Shown piece by piece: positions 39,085-50,559 of a stretch of 64,000 nucleotides of DNA. Position 1 is the stretch's first letter; each line of letters opens with the position of its first letter. Where the stretch lies: positions 3,162,001 through 3,226,000 of the forward strand of contig NZ_CP132294.1 in NCBI RefSeq assembly GCF_030734285.1, read 5' to 3'. The stretch comes from Natronococcus sp. AD-5 (lineage in GTDB: Archaea > Halobacteriota > Halobacteria > Halobacteriales > Natrialbaceae). A program made the position numbers and the translations under genes. The notes below the pieces were generated by a model. The model was given only the letters and a program-made list of their open reading frames with translations. It searched no databases and was not told the DNA's origin.

Positions 39085-39678
39085 TTATCCGCCGTTTTCG
39101 TCCTCAGCGTCGCCGTCTTCTCCGTTACGCGAATCGACGCATCGAGCCGTCACCCTGAACAGGTTCAATCGTGTGCTAAACACTTGCGTATCGGTACCGA
39201 ACTCGTAGGATGCGTCAGTCTCGAGCGCCCCGCGGGTGAACACGAGCATCGTCGAGTGAACCTGCTCGTCCCCGAACTCGGAGCGAACGACGTATCCGGT
39301 GTACTCGTCGGGCTGCGTCAGAACGGGGACCGTTTCGTCGTTCGGCAAACGGAGAATCTGGACCACGATCGGTGCGGGAAGTCGATCGATGACCCGGATC
39401 GCGAGTCCCGGACGGTAGTCGGTCAGCGACACGAGCACTAACTGGTCGGGTTGTGGACACTCGGCGTCCGCCGTAGACGGATCCCCAGTCTCGCCCGCGT
39501 CCGGAGATTCCTCGGTAGTCTCGGCGCTCTCGTTGCCCAGCGCGGAGGATCCGACGACCGATGCGCCGGCGGCTACCGTTCCGCGTTTTATCGCCCCGTT
39601 CGCGGAACCGGCCGCTGGGGTCTCCGATCCGTCCTCCCTGTTCGTTTTCCGATCGCCTGTCGGGTTCCACTCCGTCAT
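39085..39678 (-). CDS. Secreted-type protein, tandem paralogue 1 of 3
   Basis: A 197-residue acidic protein starting MTEWNPTGDRKTNREDG. After about 30 polar residues comes AIKRGTVAAGASVVGSSALG, which looks like a weak Tat-type signal with KR in place of RR. The C-terminal 110 residues are the family domain: VVQILRLPNDETVPVLTQPD, EYTGYVVR, then TQVFSTRLNLFRVT. The same order of motifs occurs in the next two genes upstream. An in-frame ATG at 39816 would add 46 residues but looks non-coding. No known domain recognised. Confidence 0.65.
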   Translation of the reverse strand: MTEWNPTGDRKTNREDGSETPAAGSANGAIKRGTVAAGASVVGSSALGNESAETTEESPDAGETGDPSTADAECPQPDQLVLVSLTDYRPGLAIRVIDRLPAPIVVQILRLPNDETVPVLTQPDEYTGYVVRSEFGDEQVHSTMLVFTRGALETDASYEFGTDTQVFSTRLNLFRVTARCVDSRNGEDGDAEDENGG

Positions 39679-39834
39679 TCGTGTCTCCCCTCGATGATTG
39701 ACTCCCGTACCGATGCGGCTCGTCTCGAGCGATCTCTTCTCGGTATCCGCGTCGGACCCGTCACGATATCCAGACCGAACGGATCTGACGGCGAACGTTC
39801 GATCAAAGTAACGCAAAATATGGTGTGGTAGTGC

Positions 39835-40164
39835 CTATTCTAACGTCGTCTCGAGGAGGTTCAGCTCCGAACTGAACATCGACGCGTCTTCGCCGAGCGT
39901 TCCGCTGTCGTCGTCGTCCAGGGTGTCGTCACGGAGGAACAGAAACGTCGTGGGAGACAATGGGGCCTCATCGCCGTTGTACCGGATGACGTAGCCGTTG
40001 TATTCGTCGGGCTGAGAGATCTCCGGAATGGTCTCATCTTCGGCGGTCTGTAGGATGTTCACCGTCGTACTCGTTTCGATGTCCGAGACGACGTCGAATT
40101 CCGATCCGGCCTGGTAGTCGTACGAGAACGTCAGTACTTGTCCGTCACCGTCATCTTGCACCAT
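39835..40164 (-). CDS. Tandem paralogue 2 of 3, domain only, no signal peptide
   Basis: A 109-residue acidic protein. It starts MVQDDGDGQVLTFSYDYQAG and carries the family motifs EDETIPEISQPDEYNGYVIR, TTFLFLRDD, and EDASMFSSELNLLETTL. It begins two bases after the stop of the Tat-exported paralogue at 40167, so the two are translated together. It has no signal peptide and no membrane segment: either it stays in the cell, is exported with its partner, or is the second half of a formerly single two-domain gene. Function unknown. Confidence 0.65.
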   Translation of the reverse strand: MVQDDGDGQVLTFSYDYQAGSEFDVVSDIETSTTVNILQTAEDETIPEISQPDEYNGYVIRYNGDEAPLSPTTFLFLRDDTLDDDDSGTLGEDASMFSSELNLLETTLE

Positions 40165-40166
40165 TA

Positions 40167-40673
40167 TTACTCACCTCCGCTTTCGTTACCTGCAGTTTCG
40201 TTATCTGCGGTTTCGTTATCTGCGGGCTCTTCACCGTCGCCGGCAGCCTCTACTGACGTGCTGAGGAGGTTCAGGTCGGAACTCAGCACCGACGCGTCTT
40301 CGGCGATCGTCCCGCTATCGCCATCGCTTAGTGACGCCCCGCGAATGTACAGGAACGTCGTGATTCCTCCCGACTCGCCGCCGATGTTGTAACGGATGAT
40401 GTGCCCGTTCCACTCGTCGGGCTGTGAAATCTCCGGGACAGTTTCGTCATCGACCTGTAGTGTGTCGACCGTCGTACTCGTTTCGAGCCGTGCGAGGACG
40501 TCGAAGTCCGCTCCGGGATAGTAGTTGTCCGCGAAGACCGCCACTTCTTCTCCGTCCTGTGCACCTGCTACGCTCGTGCCGATGGTGGCCGTTCCCAGCG
40601 TGAGCGCACCAGCCGCGAGGGCACTCTTCGCCATGAACGACCGTCTCGACTCGCCTGTCTGTTCTTGCTTCAT
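40167..40673 (-). CDS. Tat-exported tandem paralogue 3 of 3, with sequon-rich tail
   Basis: A 168-residue protein. The N-terminus holds a clear Tat signal, SRRSFMAKSALAAGALTLG, ending near the AGAQ cleavage region. The domain follows: TVDTLQVDDETVPEISQPDE, WNGHIIRYN, TTFLYIRGA, EDASVLSSDLNLLSTSV. The C-terminal tail is a repeat of NETAD units carrying N-glycosylation sequons; in DNA it is three 15-base copies at 40181-40225. It is the first gene of the three-gene set. No fold assigned; probably a small beta-rich exported protein. Confidence 0.7.
   Translation of the reverse strand: MKQEQTGESRRSFMAKSALAAGALTLGTATIGTSVAGAQDGEEVAVFADNYYPGADFDVLARLETSTTVDTLQVDDETVPEISQPDEWNGHIIRYNIGGESGGITTFLYIRGASLSDGDSGTIAEDASVLSSDLNLLSTSVEAAGDGEEPADNETADNETAGNESGGE
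40181..40225 (-). repeat. Three 15-bp in-frame repeats (NETAD units)
   Basis: TTTCGTTACCTGCAG, TTTCGTTATCTGCGG and TTTCGTTATCTGCGG lie head to tail. On the coding (minus) strand they give Asn-Glu-Thr sequons. A related sequon repeat occurs at 44405-44510 in another exported protein. Confidence 0.7.
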
Positions 40674-41682: not shown

Positions 41683-43896
41683 ATGGTACCCGATGTCAAG
41701 GGCGGCCGGGCGCGCCGACGGGGATTACGCCGCCGCCGCTTCATCCAGGCGGCGGCCGGCAGCGCGCTCGTGGGCCTCGGTGGACGGTCGGTGGCCCAGG
41801 GGGTGAGGGAGATCCGTCTCGACGGCGACGCGAACGGCTGGGTGGGCCAGGCGCCGTCGGCTATCGACGGTGAAACGAATCCGACGCTCGCGCTCGAGGT
41901 GGGACGAGAGTACGAACTCACCTGGACGAATGTCGACGGGAATACTCACGACTTCGCCATCGAAGACGAGAACGGCGACGTCGTCGGACCGACGAACTCG
42001 GTGAGCGAGGACGGCGAGAGCCAAACCGTGGCGTTCACGGCCGTCGAGGAGATGACCGGCTACTACTGTACGACTCACCCGGGATCGATGCGCGGTGCGA
42101 TCGAATTCGTCGCCGCGGACGATTCCGAAGCGGTGTCGGTTGGAGACTCCGACGTCCGACTCGTTTCGTCCCGAGATTTGACCGACGAAAATCACGAGTA
42201 CTTCCACGCGTATCGCAAGCGGCGGGCGATCGAAGCGCTTCTCGCCGACCCGGAGGTGAACGAGATCGTCGACGACATGATCTCGAGTTACGAGGCGTAC
42301 GATCCGTACACGAACCGACTCGATGCGGTTAGCGTCCAAGGGAGCCCCGACATCGAGATCGAAGGAGGCATCGACGAGGGAGCGTTCGAGGTGACGGTCG
42401 GGGAGAGGCGGGTCGCGTACGGACTCGTCGATCGCGAGAGCGACGAACTCGTTGCGCTGACGATCACCGAACCGCGGGACGTCTCCTGGACGGTCAGCGA
42501 GGGAGAAGAGTTCGACGAAGCGCAACTCCGCCGGGTGATCGACGATCCGCGCGTACAGGAGTCCGTCGATATCGAAGGCGACGACTGGTATCCGCTTTTC
42601 ACGGTCGCCGCATCGATCACTTCCGCCAGGGGGATCGAACACGGTGGCGTGAATCCCGTGGTCCTATTCGTCGCGGCGGACGACGCGCTCACTGCCGTCG
42701 TCGTCTACCTGGACGTTCGGGAGGACGAAGCCGGCGAGGTAATCGACGTGGCGCAGGTGAATCGGTTCGTCGAGGATCCACCGCACGAACTGGCCGCCAC
42801 CATCGTGCCTGCGGACGACACCGTCCTCGAAGCCGTCCCGGAAGTACCGTTCGAACGGCGGCCGTGGGACACCGCGAACGACGGTATTCACCGGATCGAG
42901 GTGCCGAACGAGGCTTTCGATCGTTCCGGGTGGCGTATCGAGTGGGAACCGCCGGAACGACACGGCGTCGAGATCGCCGCCTCGTACCGGGGAACACCGG
43001 CGTTCGCGCGCCTCGATTCCCCGGTAACCTACACCGCGTACGGTCTTCCGGAGCGAGGTGACGAGAGTATACTCGAGTGGTTCTTCCCGGACGACGAACC
43101 CGTGTTCGACGGAGAGTTACTGCTTTGGGACGTCCACAGCACCGAGTTCGGCGGGCCCGGACCGCTCGGGGTGATCGAGTATCCGCAGACCACCCGACGG
43201 CCGGCGGGATTTCGGTTCAGATCTCACTACCAGACCGGGGCTCAAGACGCCGAGAGCCAAGACCACCAATCCGGGTACCGATTCGGTCAATCTAGTCACG
43301 AAATCTCTTACGACTTCTGGGCGGACGGGACGGTTGTGCCGGTCTGGCGTCGACAGGGCCCCGGGTTCGCGACCGAGTACGCGACGGCCAGAAACGGGGA
43401 CGAGGATACGAACAGTGACTCGGGTATCGGCGCTGACGTCGATGGCGTGACCGAGAGCGGCGTCTCCCACCACTCCGTCTCGGCGGTCACCATGGACGTC
43501 ACTCCGGGGACGACGGACGGTGTCGAGATCGAACGCTACGATGGGACCGCGTGGACGACGCCCGAAACGGAATTCTATCAGGTCGGCGAGCCGGGAATGG
43601 TCGTCCGGTTTACCAACCCGGAGGGGACGGAAACGATCGATCTGCCTCTCGACTACGGTACGGAAGTGGCCGTCGTCCGACGAAGTGCCGGAGAGATCCC
43701 CGAGCGACAGCGGATTGAAAGTTCAGCGGTGGAATCCGCGTTTTACCATCCGGCGCAGTACATCGGAAACGAACCCATCCAGGGTGAACGCGTTATCGTC
43801 TGGCTCCTGCTCGAGGCTGCGACGCGGGAACGTCCCCATCCCACCGGGAGCACGTCGTTCGTCACTCGCGCTTCGATCGAGCTGTCCGACTACTGA
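41683..43896 (+). CDS. Tat-exported cupredoxin-domain multidomain protein
   Basis: A 737-residue exported protein. The N-terminus has a Tat signal (LRRRRFIQAAAGSALVGLGG). A cupredoxin domain follows at about residues 40-145: WTNVDGNTHDFAIEDENGDV supplies the first His, and MTGYYCTTHPGSMRGAIEF supplies Cys, His and Met, a complete type 1 copper site. The remaining 590 residues have no clear name. Parts (AASYRGTPAFARLDSPVTYT; SSHEISYDFWADGTVVPVW) recall the catalytic fold of copper amine oxidases, but I do not see the Tyr-containing NYDY motif that makes the cofactor. It may be an electron-transfer or copper-binding surface protein. Confidence 0.65.
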   Translation: MVPDVKGGRARRRGLRRRRFIQAAAGSALVGLGGRSVAQGVREIRLDGDANGWVGQAPSAIDGETNPTLALEVGREYELTWTNVDGNTHDFAIEDENGDVVGPTNSVSEDGESQTVAFTAVEEMTGYYCTTHPGSMRGAIEFVAADDSEAVSVGDSDVRLVSSRDLTDENHEYFHAYRKRRAIEALLADPEVNEIVDDMISSYEAYDPYTNRLDAVSVQGSPDIEIEGGIDEGAFEVTVGERRVAYGLVDRESDELVALTITEPRDVSWTVSEGEEFDEAQLRRVIDDPRVQESVDIEGDDWYPLFTVAASITSARGIEHGGVNPVVLFVAADDALTAVVVYLDVREDEAGEVIDVAQVNRFVEDPPHELAATIVPADDTVLEAVPEVPFERRPWDTANDGIHRIEVPNEAFDRSGWRIEWEPPERHGVEIAASYRGTPAFARLDSPVTYTAYGLPERGDESILEWFFPDDEPVFDGELLLWDVHSTEFGGPGPLGVIEYPQTTRRPAGFRFRSHYQTGAQDAESQDHQSGYRFGQSSHEISYDFWADGTVVPVWRRQGPGFATEYATARNGDEDTNSDSGIGADVDGVTESGVSHHSVSAVTMDVTPGTTDGVEIERYDGTAWTTPETEFYQVGEPGMVVRFTNPEGTETIDLPLDYGTEVAVVRRSAGEIPERQRIESSAVESAFYHPAQYIGNEPIQGERVIVWLLLEAATRERPHPTGSTSFVTRASIELSDY

Positions 43897-43995: not shown

Positions 43996-45189
43996 TTAAC
44001 CTTTGGTCTCGTTTTCAGCGTCGCCGGCGTCCGTCTCGTCGTCGGTTCCGGTATCCGTCTCGTTCATTTCGTCGCTCGCCGTCGCACCGTTACCTTCGAC
44101 AGCTTCGAGTTCGCTCGCGTCGCCGAACGTGAGCGTCTCGACGGTTGCGTTTTCGACGGTGATCGACGGTGCGGATGCCTGCGAGATGGTCTCGCCGGCC
44201 TCGTCGCCCGCGGCGGCACCGTTCTCGTCCGTCGCGTTGTCAGCAGTCGTCTCGTTGTCACCTTCCGTAACGTTGTCTTCTTCGACCGCGGCGCCATCAG
44301 CGCCGGTGTCGCCTTCCTCGACGGATTCCACGGTCATGGATTCGACCGTAATCTCGTCAACGTCGAACTGTTCGACGGTTAGTTCCTGGATCTCTTGTGG
44401 CGCGGTCTCGTTGTCTTCGGCGGCCGTCTCGTTGTCTTCAGCGGCCGTCTCGTTGTCTTCCTCAGCCACCGTCTCGTTATCTTCAGCGGCCGTCTCGTTG
44501 TCTTCAGCAGCGGGGACGTCCTCGGTATCACCATCCTCGCCGACGGTTAGGTCTTCGATGGTGAGCCGCTCGACGTTCATCGATTCGATCGTGACCTCCT
44601 GGATCGTCAGTTCGTCAGCACCTCCGTCGATCAGATTCTGCTCGGTATCCGTCTCGTTGGCCGGCGTATCAGCGCCGTTCTCGCCCGTCTCGTTGTCTTC
44701 CTCGGCGACGGGGTCGTCCTCTCCGTCCCCAGCCGTCTCGTTATCTTGCTCGAGTTCGCTTTGCTCCACCGAGACGTTCTCGAGCGACAGCGAGTCGACC
44801 TGAATGTCGGAGAGAGTCACTTGGTCGCCGGCGGTGGCGTTGTCCGCGGCGGTATCGTTGCCGACGTCTCCCTCGGCGTCGGTAGCGTTGTCTTCCGCAG
44901 CGGTGTCGTTTTCGGCGGCGGCACCGTCCTGCTCGAGTTCGTCCTGCAGCGCCTGCACGTCGGCATCGAGTTGTTCGACGTTCAGTTCTTCGATCGTCGC
45001 GTTCTCGACGGTGACGTTCTCGAGTTCAAGCGTATCAACCTGTACGTTTTCAAGCGTTGCGCTCGTTTCGCCCATGTCTCCGGCGTCGTCGCCTGCACCT
45101 GCTGTCGCACCGGCGAGGGCAGGACCCCCCGAAAGCGCGACCAGCAGTGCGACGAGCGCGACGCCGAGTTTCTGTGATCGTGAAACCAT
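43996..45189 (-). CDS. Secreted protein with period-5 repeat blocks and sequon-rich acidic linkers
   Basis: A 397-residue protein with a Sec signal peptide (KLGVALVALLVALSGGPALA). The mature part has about five blocks with a hydrophobic residue every five positions, such as LTIQE-VTIES-MNVER, VDTLE-LENVT-VENAT-IEELN and LTVEQ-FDVDE-ITVES. This pattern resembles pentapeptide-repeat beta-helices. The blocks are joined by very acidic linkers with about twenty Asn-x-Ser/Thr sequons, many in DNET units. No membrane anchor or PGF-CTERM signal is seen at the C-terminus. It is probably a heavily N-glycosylated cell-surface or matrix protein; no family recognised. Confidence 0.65.
   Translation of the reverse strand: MVSRSQKLGVALVALLVALSGGPALAGATAGAGDDAGDMGETSATLENVQVDTLELENVTVENATIEELNVEQLDADVQALQDELEQDGAAAENDTAAEDNATDAEGDVGNDTAADNATAGDQVTLSDIQVDSLSLENVSVEQSELEQDNETAGDGEDDPVAEEDNETGENGADTPANETDTEQNLIDGGADELTIQEVTIESMNVERLTIEDLTVGEDGDTEDVPAAEDNETAAEDNETVAEEDNETAAEDNETAAEDNETAPQEIQELTVEQFDVDEITVESMTVESVEEGDTGADGAAVEEDNVTEGDNETTADNATDENGAAAGDEAGETISQASAPSITVENATVETLTFGDASELEAVEGNGATASDEMNETDTGTDDETDAGDAENETKG
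44405..44510 (-). repeat. Five in-frame tandem repeats of about 21 bp (AEDNETA)
   Basis: GTCTCGTTGTCTTC followed by GGCGGCC or AGCGGCC recurs five times head to tail; the third copy is three bases longer. Each copy encodes one Asn-Glu-Thr sequon. Such near-identical copies can gain or lose units without shifting the frame, changing the number of glycosylation sites. Confidence 0.75.
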
Positions 45190-48770: not shown

Positions 48771-50171
48771 ATGAGCGACGCTAACACGAACCGCTCAGAA
48801 TCGGAGAGCGGCCACGACCACGCCGACCATCACCACGCGGGACCGGGGTACGCGACGCCGCAGGCGGCCATCGAGGAGAGCGAGCGCGAGACGCTCGCCT
48901 ACGTGATGGGGCTGTACGTCGGCACGGATATCGACGAACCGGACTTCGTCGCCGTCGTCGATCTCGATCCCGACTCCGAGACGTACTGCGAAATCGTCGA
49001 TCGGGTCGAGATGCCCGCTCGCGGCGACGAACTCCACCACTTCGGGTGGAACGCCTGCTCGTCGTCGTGTCACGTCGAGGGCCTCGAGCGCCGCCACCTG
49101 ATCGTCCCGGGCCAGCGCTCCTCGCGGATTCACGTGATCGATACGAAGGATCGCCGCGATCCCGAACTGGTCGAGGTGATCGAACCCGAGGAGGTCTTCG
49201 AGTACGACCTCTCGGCGCCGCACACGGTTCACTGCGTTCCGGACGGCAAGATCCTGCTCAGCATGCTCGGGGACGCCGACGGCGAACTGCCGGGCGGCTT
49301 CCTCGAGCTGAACGACGACTTCGAGATCGAGGGCCGGTGGGAGCCGCCGGGCGAGATCGAGATGAACTACGACTACTGGTACCAGCCCCGCCAGAACGTG
49401 ATGGTCTCGAGCGAGTGGGCCGCCCCCGCGACCTACCAACCGGGGTTCGACCTCGAGGACGTCGAGGACGGAAAGTACGGCCAGCAACTCCACGTCTGGG
49501 ACTGGGAGGAGGGGACCGTCGAACAGACGATCGATCTCGGCGAGGAGGGGCTGATCCCGCTCGAAGTTCGGTTCCTCCACACGCCGGAGTCGACCCACGG
49601 CTTCGTCGGCGCGGCGCTCTCGTCGAACGTCTTCCACTTCTGGGAGGAAGACGGCGAGTACCGCGCCGAGAAGGTGATCGACTTCGAGGCCCGCGAGCAC
49701 CCCGACTGGGACATGCCGGTTCCGGCCCTGCCGACCGACATCTTGATCTCGATGGACGACCGCTACCTGTTCGGCTCGAACTGGCTCCACGGCGAGGTCT
49801 GGATGTACGACGTCTCGGATCCAGCGAACCCGCAGCGGGCAGATTCGCTCTCCGTGGGCGGTCACTTCGGCGAGGTCCAGGAGGTCCAGGGCCGCGAACT
49901 GGCCGCCGGGCCCCAGATGGTGCAGCTCAGCCTCGACGGCGAACGGCTCTACTGGACCACCTCGCTGTTCTCCACGTGGGACGACCAGTTCTACCCCGAG
50001 GAGGCCGAGCGCGGCTCGGTGATGCTGAAAGCCGACGTCGATCCGCGCAAGGGGACCCTCGAACTCGACGAGGACTTTCTCGTGGACTTCGGCGAGTGTC
50101 CGGCCGGACCCGCCCGCGCTCACGAGATCCGGTGGCCCGACGGCGACTGTACGAGCGACGTCTGGCAGTGA
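48771..50171 (+). CDS. Selenium-binding protein 56 family / methanethiol oxidase
   Basis: A 466-residue protein of the SBP56 family, in humans and bacteria a methanethiol oxidase giving formaldehyde, H2S and H2O2. Family hallmarks: FGWNACSSSCHVEGLERRHL, SAPHTVHCVPDGKILLSMLG, YDYWYQPRQNVMVSSEWAAP, FLHTPESTHGFVGAALSSN, DILISMDDRYLFGSNWLHGE and ending PAGPARAHEIRWPDGDCTSD. The first 25 residues are a histidine/acid-rich stretch (HDHADHHHAG) that might bind copper. CAGACTTATCCC lies about 28 bases upstream. The ferredoxin gene follows after seven bases. Confidence 0.92.
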   Translation: MSDANTNRSESESGHDHADHHHAGPGYATPQAAIEESERETLAYVMGLYVGTDIDEPDFVAVVDLDPDSETYCEIVDRVEMPARGDELHHFGWNACSSSCHVEGLERRHLIVPGQRSSRIHVIDTKDRRDPELVEVIEPEEVFEYDLSAPHTVHCVPDGKILLSMLGDADGELPGGFLELNDDFEIEGRWEPPGEIEMNYDYWYQPRQNVMVSSEWAAPATYQPGFDLEDVEDGKYGQQLHVWDWEEGTVEQTIDLGEEGLIPLEVRFLHTPESTHGFVGAALSSNVFHFWEEDGEYRAEKVIDFEAREHPDWDMPVPALPTDILISMDDRYLFGSNWLHGEVWMYDVSDPANPQRADSLSVGGHFGEVQEVQGRELAAGPQMVQLSLDGERLYWTTSLFSTWDDQFYPEEAERGSVMLKADVDPRKGTLELDEDFLVDFGECPAGPARAHEIRWPDGDCTSDVWQ

Positions 50172-50178
50172 CGGCAGG

Positions 50179-50559
50179 ATGCCGTCCCACGACGTCACCC
50201 TCGAGTGGATAAACGGCCCCACCCGAACGGTGGCGGTCGACGCGGACGAGACGGTCCTCCAGGCGACGGAGCGCGCCGGCGGGACGTTGCCGTACGGCTG
50301 TCGGACCGGCGCGTGCGGGACCTGCGTGGGGCGATTGCTCGAGGTCGACGGGGTGACGAAGGCTGACGACCGCACCGGCGACGGGCGGGCGGTCGACGTC
50401 GACGACGCCTTTACGTACCGCCGAGCCCCGCGAGCACTGAAACCGCGACATCAGGACGACGGCTACGTACTACTTTGCATCGCGTCTCCGCGGGCGGACT
50501 GTCGCGTCGCCGTCGGCTCGCAGGTGCAGTCCGAACTCGTCGACAACCCGTGGAAGTAG
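50179..50559 (+). CDS. Plant-type 2Fe-2S ferredoxin
   Basis: A 126-residue electron carrier. The cluster motif is YGCRTGACGTCVGRLLE (C-x4-C-x2-C) with the fourth Cys in GYVLLCIASP. An insertion of about 25 residues (DDRTGDGRAVDVDDAFTYRR) precedes the fourth Cys. The gene begins seven bases after the SBP56 stop, so both are surely on one transcript. The pairing suggests that the ferredoxin serves the methanethiol oxidase or a linked sulfur reaction; this is inferred from position only. Confidence 0.9.
   Translation: MPSHDVTLEWINGPTRTVAVDADETVLQATERAGGTLPYGCRTGACGTCVGRLLEVDGVTKADDRTGDGRAVDVDDAFTYRRAPRALKPRHQDDGYVLLCIASPRADCRVAVGSQVQSELVDNPWK

Follow-up and report, generated by a model that had tools for sequence, protein, structure and literature searches.

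In the haloarchaeon Natronococcus sp. AD-5, a gene on the minus strand of the window (the whole 64,000-nucleotide stretch of DNA that was analysed) encodes a protein in which short blocks with regularly spaced hydrophobic residues alternate with acidic linkers dense in N-glycosylation sequons. We asked what kind of protein this is, how its blocks might fold and what its linkers might contribute. The gene occupies positions 43996-45189 with exact open reading frame bounds, starts with ATG and encodes 397 amino acids; no other copy of the family is present in this genome. Residues 1-27 (45109-45189, minus strand; MVSRSQKLGVALVALLVALSGGPALAG) read as a Sec-type signal peptide, in agreement with a preliminary description in which the protein was taken to be exported, and no other segment of the family is as well conserved (mean majority fraction 0.84). 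The cleavage site, ALA-GA, was judged by eye.

Five blocks and four linkers follow, all encoded on the minus strand. Block 1 (residues 42-78, 44956-45066) comprises the seven pentads ATLEN VQVDT LELEN VTVEN ATIEE LNVEQ LDADV and carries the sequons N58 and N63. Linker 1 (residues 79-121, 44827-44955) is acidic, holds four sequons and is predicted to begin with a short helix (78-90), while block 2 (residues 122-146, 44752-44826), with the pentads VTLSD IQVDS LSLEN VSVEQ, carries sequon N138. Next come linker 2 (residues 147-187, 44629-44751; acidic, three sequons), block 3 (residues 188-218, 44536-44628; LTIQE VTIES MNVER LTIED LTVGE), linker 3 (residues 219-263, 44401-44535; acidic, five sequons), block 4 (residues 264-294, 44308-44400; LTVEQ FDVDE ITVES MTVES) and linker 4 (residues 295-331, 44197-44307; acidic, three sequons). 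Block 5 (residues 332-366, 44092-44196; ETISQ ASAPS ITVEN ATVET LTFGD ASELE; sequon N347) is the least regular and leads into an acidic C-terminal tail with two sequons (residues 367-397, 43999-44091), where sequence inspection revealed no membrane anchor, hydrophobic segment or sorting motif.

A total of 26 gapless pentads could be fitted in the blocks, with L, V, A, I or M at position a, T or S at b, V, I or L at c, E or D at d, and N, E, S, Q or D at e. Because each pentad holds two hydrophobic residues, at positions a and c and spaced by two and then by three residues, the periodic signal is strongest at 2.5 residues, which is the second harmonic of 5. This periodicity was matched by 0 of 2000 shuffles in blocks 1-4 and is weaker in block 5 (p ~0.05, shuffles), and the period-five blocks initially described are therefore real. 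N-x-S/T sites number 21, whereas 5000 shuffles averaged 4.3 and never exceeded 13. About twenty had been reported in the acidic linkers, and 15 of the 21 do lie in linkers 1-4, with two in the tail and the four block sites named above. The excess is partly a product of copying, since five sites sit in linker 3, and a 21-bp tandem repeat of 4.8 copies (44405-44508, minus strand) that encodes AEDNETA units makes up most of that linker.

Searches with the window protein against Pfam, NCBIfam and PDB sequences were all empty, as had been anticipated when no family could be assigned to it; it belongs to a secreted haloarchaeal family that is in no curated library. Relatives are present in eight of the nine genomes of the genus and in 89 of 293 genomes of an order-wide sample, where most sampled Natrialbaceae were positive. 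A scan of ten loci in named genomes located the family in Halopiger, Natrinema, Haloterrigena, Natronococcus, Natronorubrum and Halobiforma, with no plasmid-borne copies among these loci. Diverged relatives occur in other families of the Halobacteriales, some with a C-terminal Ig-like domain and some with E-T-T-T linkers. Another family of the order has compact paralogues (L112-L125), 220-300 residues long, that consist of long unbroken pentad runs with almost no linkers. Among 83 family proteins, 46 (e.g. L057, L061 and L016) end in a short hydrophobic tail that often reads [QLP]SIAxLS, namely 35 of 41 proteins that are virtually free of sequons and 11 of 42 that are rich in them; this tail is missing from the window protein and could be a terminal strand or a sorting signal. 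One paralogue type (e.g. L052:7602-8771, L005, L021) carries an amphipathic stretch similar to GGILDQIGDFFEGIFGG, inserted behind block 3; this insert is missing from the window copy.

The genomic setting contributed little to functional assignment, as no conserved partner gene pointing to a function was seen. Many genomes carry at least two tandem copies, with arcTGT on one side and a NUDIX gene on the other. The window's genome has no copy at this locus and its single one sits elsewhere, so that the arcTGT/NUDIX setting supports no conserved operon partner. The window copy is instead flanked by yfcE and trpS, which encode a YfcE phosphodiesterase and TrpRS, and by an unclassified exported protein of 737 amino acids (41683-43896, plus strand) that has a cupredoxin-like N-terminal region by eye and no Pfam or NCBIfam match. 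Further away, a small protein at 40167-40673 (minus strand), with a weak Tat-signal match and no Pfam match, has a tail, EPADNETADNETAGNESGGE, that repeats the DNETA sequon motif; the genes at 39835-40164 and 39085-39816 resemble, by eye, paralogues of its main domain. An ordinary pair at 48771-50559 (plus strand) consists of an SBP56/methanethiol-oxidase-like gene and then a small ferredoxin-like gene (by eye). In Natronorubrum bangense, a gene next to the family locus encodes an exported protein that has DDNGRGH repeats and a pair of similar domains (L057:8342-9898, minus strand). No homology link was found to HFX_0892, a protease-activated antagonism precursor (PMC12893001) that a shared literature hit had brought up.

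Across the family, the blocks are conserved and the linkers turn over. Majority fractions are 0.59-0.78 in the blocks, which align almost without gaps, and 0.35-0.40 in the linkers, with 18-25% gaps. All five blocks occur in order in 83 of 85 unique family proteins, while the shortest linker has 16 residues and the longest 228. Blocks 1 and 2 of several distant relatives form a single unbroken run of about 12 pentads (in L067, VVLQD VTVEE LQLQN VTVHN ATIEE LHVEQ LRTSD RAFTD ATFEN VTFER LSLEN VTLEQ), and for this reason we regard linker 1 as an insertion into a continuous repeat. AlphaFold2 modelled the blocks of the window protein as strands, in keeping with the β type first proposed for them, with pLDDT values to ~90, linkers below 50 and a pTM of 0.51; a compact homologue fragment covering blocks 1-4 gave a pTM of 0.65 with blocks at ~90. 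These predictions rest on shallow alignments of 51 rows (window) and 53 rows (compact homologue). By the definition of pTM, such values would need blocks placed relative to each other, as one confident block alone would score far lower. β-structure and joint packing of the blocks are predictions of the models, which could be wrong: Foldseek and VIA-align returned a PDB match for neither, and Foldseek against the viral models of BFVD also returned none. The fold is predicted to be β and is probably one stack. An exact rule of four pentads per block, giving one quadrilateral coil each, was dropped because the blocks have four to seven pentads; lengths that are not clean multiples of four also count against the single-stack or solenoid reading that we favour.

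These observations bear on the proposal, made at the outset, that the protein is a string of beads, in which independent small β-modules would be joined by mucin-like glycosylated linkers. The linkers are indeed sequon-dense and predicted by AlphaFold2 to be disordered. However, the blocks behave as one conserved unit: relatives have block 1 fused to block 2, AlphaFold2 places the blocks jointly, and block number and order are fixed at five in nearly all family proteins, whereas bead strings usually vary. In addition, a single block, with its 20-35 residues, is not large enough to be a stable solenoid on its own. We therefore consider independent beads improbable.

A pentad repeat with two inward-type positions and polar residues between them recalls the pentapeptide repeat proteins (PF00805/PF13599 clan; MfpA, QnrB, Rfr32). 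Membership of that superfamily has been described as requiring at least eight contiguous pentapeptides and L or F at the central position (PMC8145042). The longest run in the window protein is seven (block 1), compared with about 12 in L067 and other distant relatives, and position c of the 26 pentads is V in 13, I in five, L in four, A in two, F in one and E in one. The blocks are, moreover, split by linkers of 37-45 residues, and there is no structural match to solved members: β-structure is predicted, as a right-handed quadrilateral β-helix would have it, and neither model matches the PDB. Of 22 members, nine gave sub-threshold hits to the Pentapeptide_4 profile, with a best E of 1.9e-4 and scores of 19-22 bits where the curated cut-off is 38, and the window protein matched no pentapeptide profile. 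Since two defining features fail, membership was set aside; kinship is possible, and on the sequence the family is best called pentapeptide-repeat-like rather than a proven member.

A second way to stack such blocks would be between molecules. In FapC of Pseudomonas, imperfect repeats form one cross-β layer each and linkers, one of which spans 35-259 residues, tune the fibre periphery (PMC12392863). The family shares with FapC a layout in which a few conserved β-repeats alternate with disordered linkers that are hypervariable and differ greatly in length, although an individual layer per block is here only probable. By analogy, the blocks of many molecules might stack into functional amyloid fibrils of a biofilm or matrix, with the linkers as a soft shell, and the equal predicted strand length of the five blocks (23-28 residues, AlphaFold2) would suit such an arrangement. 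Several features speak against this. The blocks have another repeat chemistry and no FapC-type Asn/Gln ladders, and Asp or Glu at position d in most pentads would place like charges on top of one another unless these were screened by high salt or cations. The protein is archaeal, its PDB sequence search disclosed no relation to FapC, and the neighbouring genes include no fap operon and no fap- or csg-type secretion, nucleator or chaperone genes. Finally, the continuous pentads of relatives resemble a solenoid that has no need of a partner. Polymerisation is putative, and we regard an amyloid as unlikely.

The linkers exist in two discrete states. Among 93 rows, some of them duplicate entries, the fraction of Asn residues lying in N-x-S/T was bimodal, with 47 rows at or below 0.3, 43 at or above 0.7 and three between. 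The preliminary description had treated dense sequons as a feature of the protein's design, and as a family constant this does not hold, because in roughly half of the relatives the linkers are all but devoid of them. For comparison we labelled proteins as rich or free by applying a threshold of 0.4 to the whole-protein fraction, which the linkers dominate (22 of ~27 sequons per rich protein). Linkers of rich proteins average 22 sequons, 33% D+E and 19% S+T, and those of free proteins 0.2 sequons, 60% D+E and 2% S+T, with linker Asn equal in both (23.5 rich vs 24.3 free). Linker acidity thus rises as sequon density falls (Spearman -0.88; D+E 0.33 vs 0.60). Copies within a genome, which belong to two old paralogue clades, agree in state in all multi-copy genomes (30 entries, or 27 of 27 distinct). 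Parsimony on the block tree required nine state changes vs 28 with shuffled labels, and strongly supported branches make at least three of the nine unavoidable. Phylogenetically independent pairs on such branches number three, too few for a formal test of Asn loss.

We considered whether the free state is mere general protein acidification in haloalkaliphiles rather than selection on glycosylation. The five named free loci (Natronococcus, Natronorubrum and Halobiforma) are in genera that we take to be haloalkaliphiles and the five named rich loci in presumed neutrophiles; in this small, phylogenetically clumped sample an alkaline habit is only a lead. Block Asp is also higher throughout the free class (398 in rich, 737 in free). 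Nevertheless, the exchange is specific to N-x-S/T. At six aligned block sites a sequon is present in 31-100% of rich and 0-37% of free proteins; in the free class Asn gives way to Asp or Glu (Fisher 1e-4 to 1e-13), and Thr or Ser at +2 is about equally frequent in both classes. N63 is a sequon in 42 of 42 rich vs 15 of 41 free proteins, with Thr in all. At N48, a non-sequon Asn at the same pentad position with V-Q next, Asn persists in 38 of 42 rich and 33 of 41 free proteins, and Asp replaces it in 8 of the 41. Overall, block Asn within sequons numbers 220 in the rich and 31 in the free class, while other block Asn stays level (111 vs 119), as does linker Asn. General acidification exists, yet it does not explain why only sequon Asn disappears, and as the whole account it seems unlikely to us. 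The bimodal, genome-wide and N-x-S/T-specific state is an indirect evolutionary sign that the cell may read these sites.

Loss of the oligosaccharyltransferase was ruled out as the cause of the free state, as STT3/AglB was detected in 54 of 55 genomes of either state, including those of sequon-free relatives. The window protein accordingly combines an export signal and sequons above chance with an organism that has an oligosaccharyltransferase; glycan attachment itself is putative. In several free genomes (among them G003, G006, G007, G130 and G249), surface-glycoprotein-type proteins hold sequons at about twice the shuffled level in the parts read, which also argues against acidification. The switch therefore appears to belong to the family or to a class of exported proteins and not to the whole envelope. 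The surface-glycoprotein-type protein of the window's own genome (L177; G000, C1:3881954) has the reverse pattern of the sequon-rich pentad protein, with 0 sequons among 27 Asn where 5.2 were expected (~510 residues read). The family itself resembles haloarchaeal S-layer glycoproteins (TIGR04207 signal type) in being exported and acidic, with N-x-S/T sites and a very conserved signal peptide, and TIGR04207 matched weakly in 2 of 22 relatives. It differs from them in its unrelated repeats, in the apparent lack of a PGF-CTERM or membrane-helix anchor (the window protein has an acidic tail and no NCBIfam match) and in lacking sequons in genomes where S-layer-type proteins retain theirs.

The mature chain of 371 residues contains only two K/R, its net charge being -117, and D+E reaches 45-56% in many relatives. 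This acidity would fit a surface polyanion that buffers cations or binds minerals or metals, its glycans being incidental. However, no known Ca2+ motif was identified, and selection acts on N-x-S/T specifically and not on Asn in general, so glycosylation probably matters; we hold this explanation to be improbable. The likeness to mucins that had been suggested extends to the disordered low-complexity linkers. Those of the window protein are N-sequon-bearing and acidic, not S/T-P rich, and alternate with structured blocks, and the comparison fits better the relatives of another taxonomic family with E-T-T-T repeats. In L068, L069, L075 and L078 such linkers represent a third linker chemistry on the same blocks and are candidates for O-glycosylation.

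The reading we favour, at about even chances, is a secreted surface or matrix protein whose blocks fold into one β-stack and whose linkers form an anionic brush. The five pentad blocks would fold together, with approximately one layer or coil each, into a single elongated and rigid stack, either a pentapeptide-repeat-type β-solenoid or a cross-β-like stack. The linkers would be insertions between layers that protrude as a disordered, strongly anionic and hydrated brush, and what is conserved in it would be its disorder and negative charge rather than any one sequence. In half of the lineages, including the window's genome, the brush would be loaded with N-glycan sequons, and in the other half with Asp and Glu instead; provided that the sequons are occupied, acidic N-glycans or carboxylates may do the same job. 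Such a charge-for-charge exchange is plausible because Haloferax N-glycans contain uronic acids (PMC8241124), and the linker data suggest that sugar and carboxylate are interchangeable on the same brush. More tentatively, and at somewhat less than even chances, we propose that each genome chooses N-glycans or carboxylates as the source of brush charge, with several switches, perhaps accompanying alkaline living, and with the oligosaccharyltransferase kept. Judging from the architecture, the brush, on the cell surface or within the extracellular matrix, may provide protection as a hydrated coat or act as a spacer.

Natrialbaceae commonly carry the family, which matched neither Pfam nor NCBIfam here, so that a widespread exported haloarchaeal protein has still to be named. 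It also lends itself to testing why an archaeon that retains its N-glycosylation machinery, and sequons on S-layer-type proteins, would strip a particular surface protein of glycan sites. If the exchange of sugar for carboxylate is as we propose, the family would be a natural experiment that separates the role of glycans from the role of charge on a surface protein.
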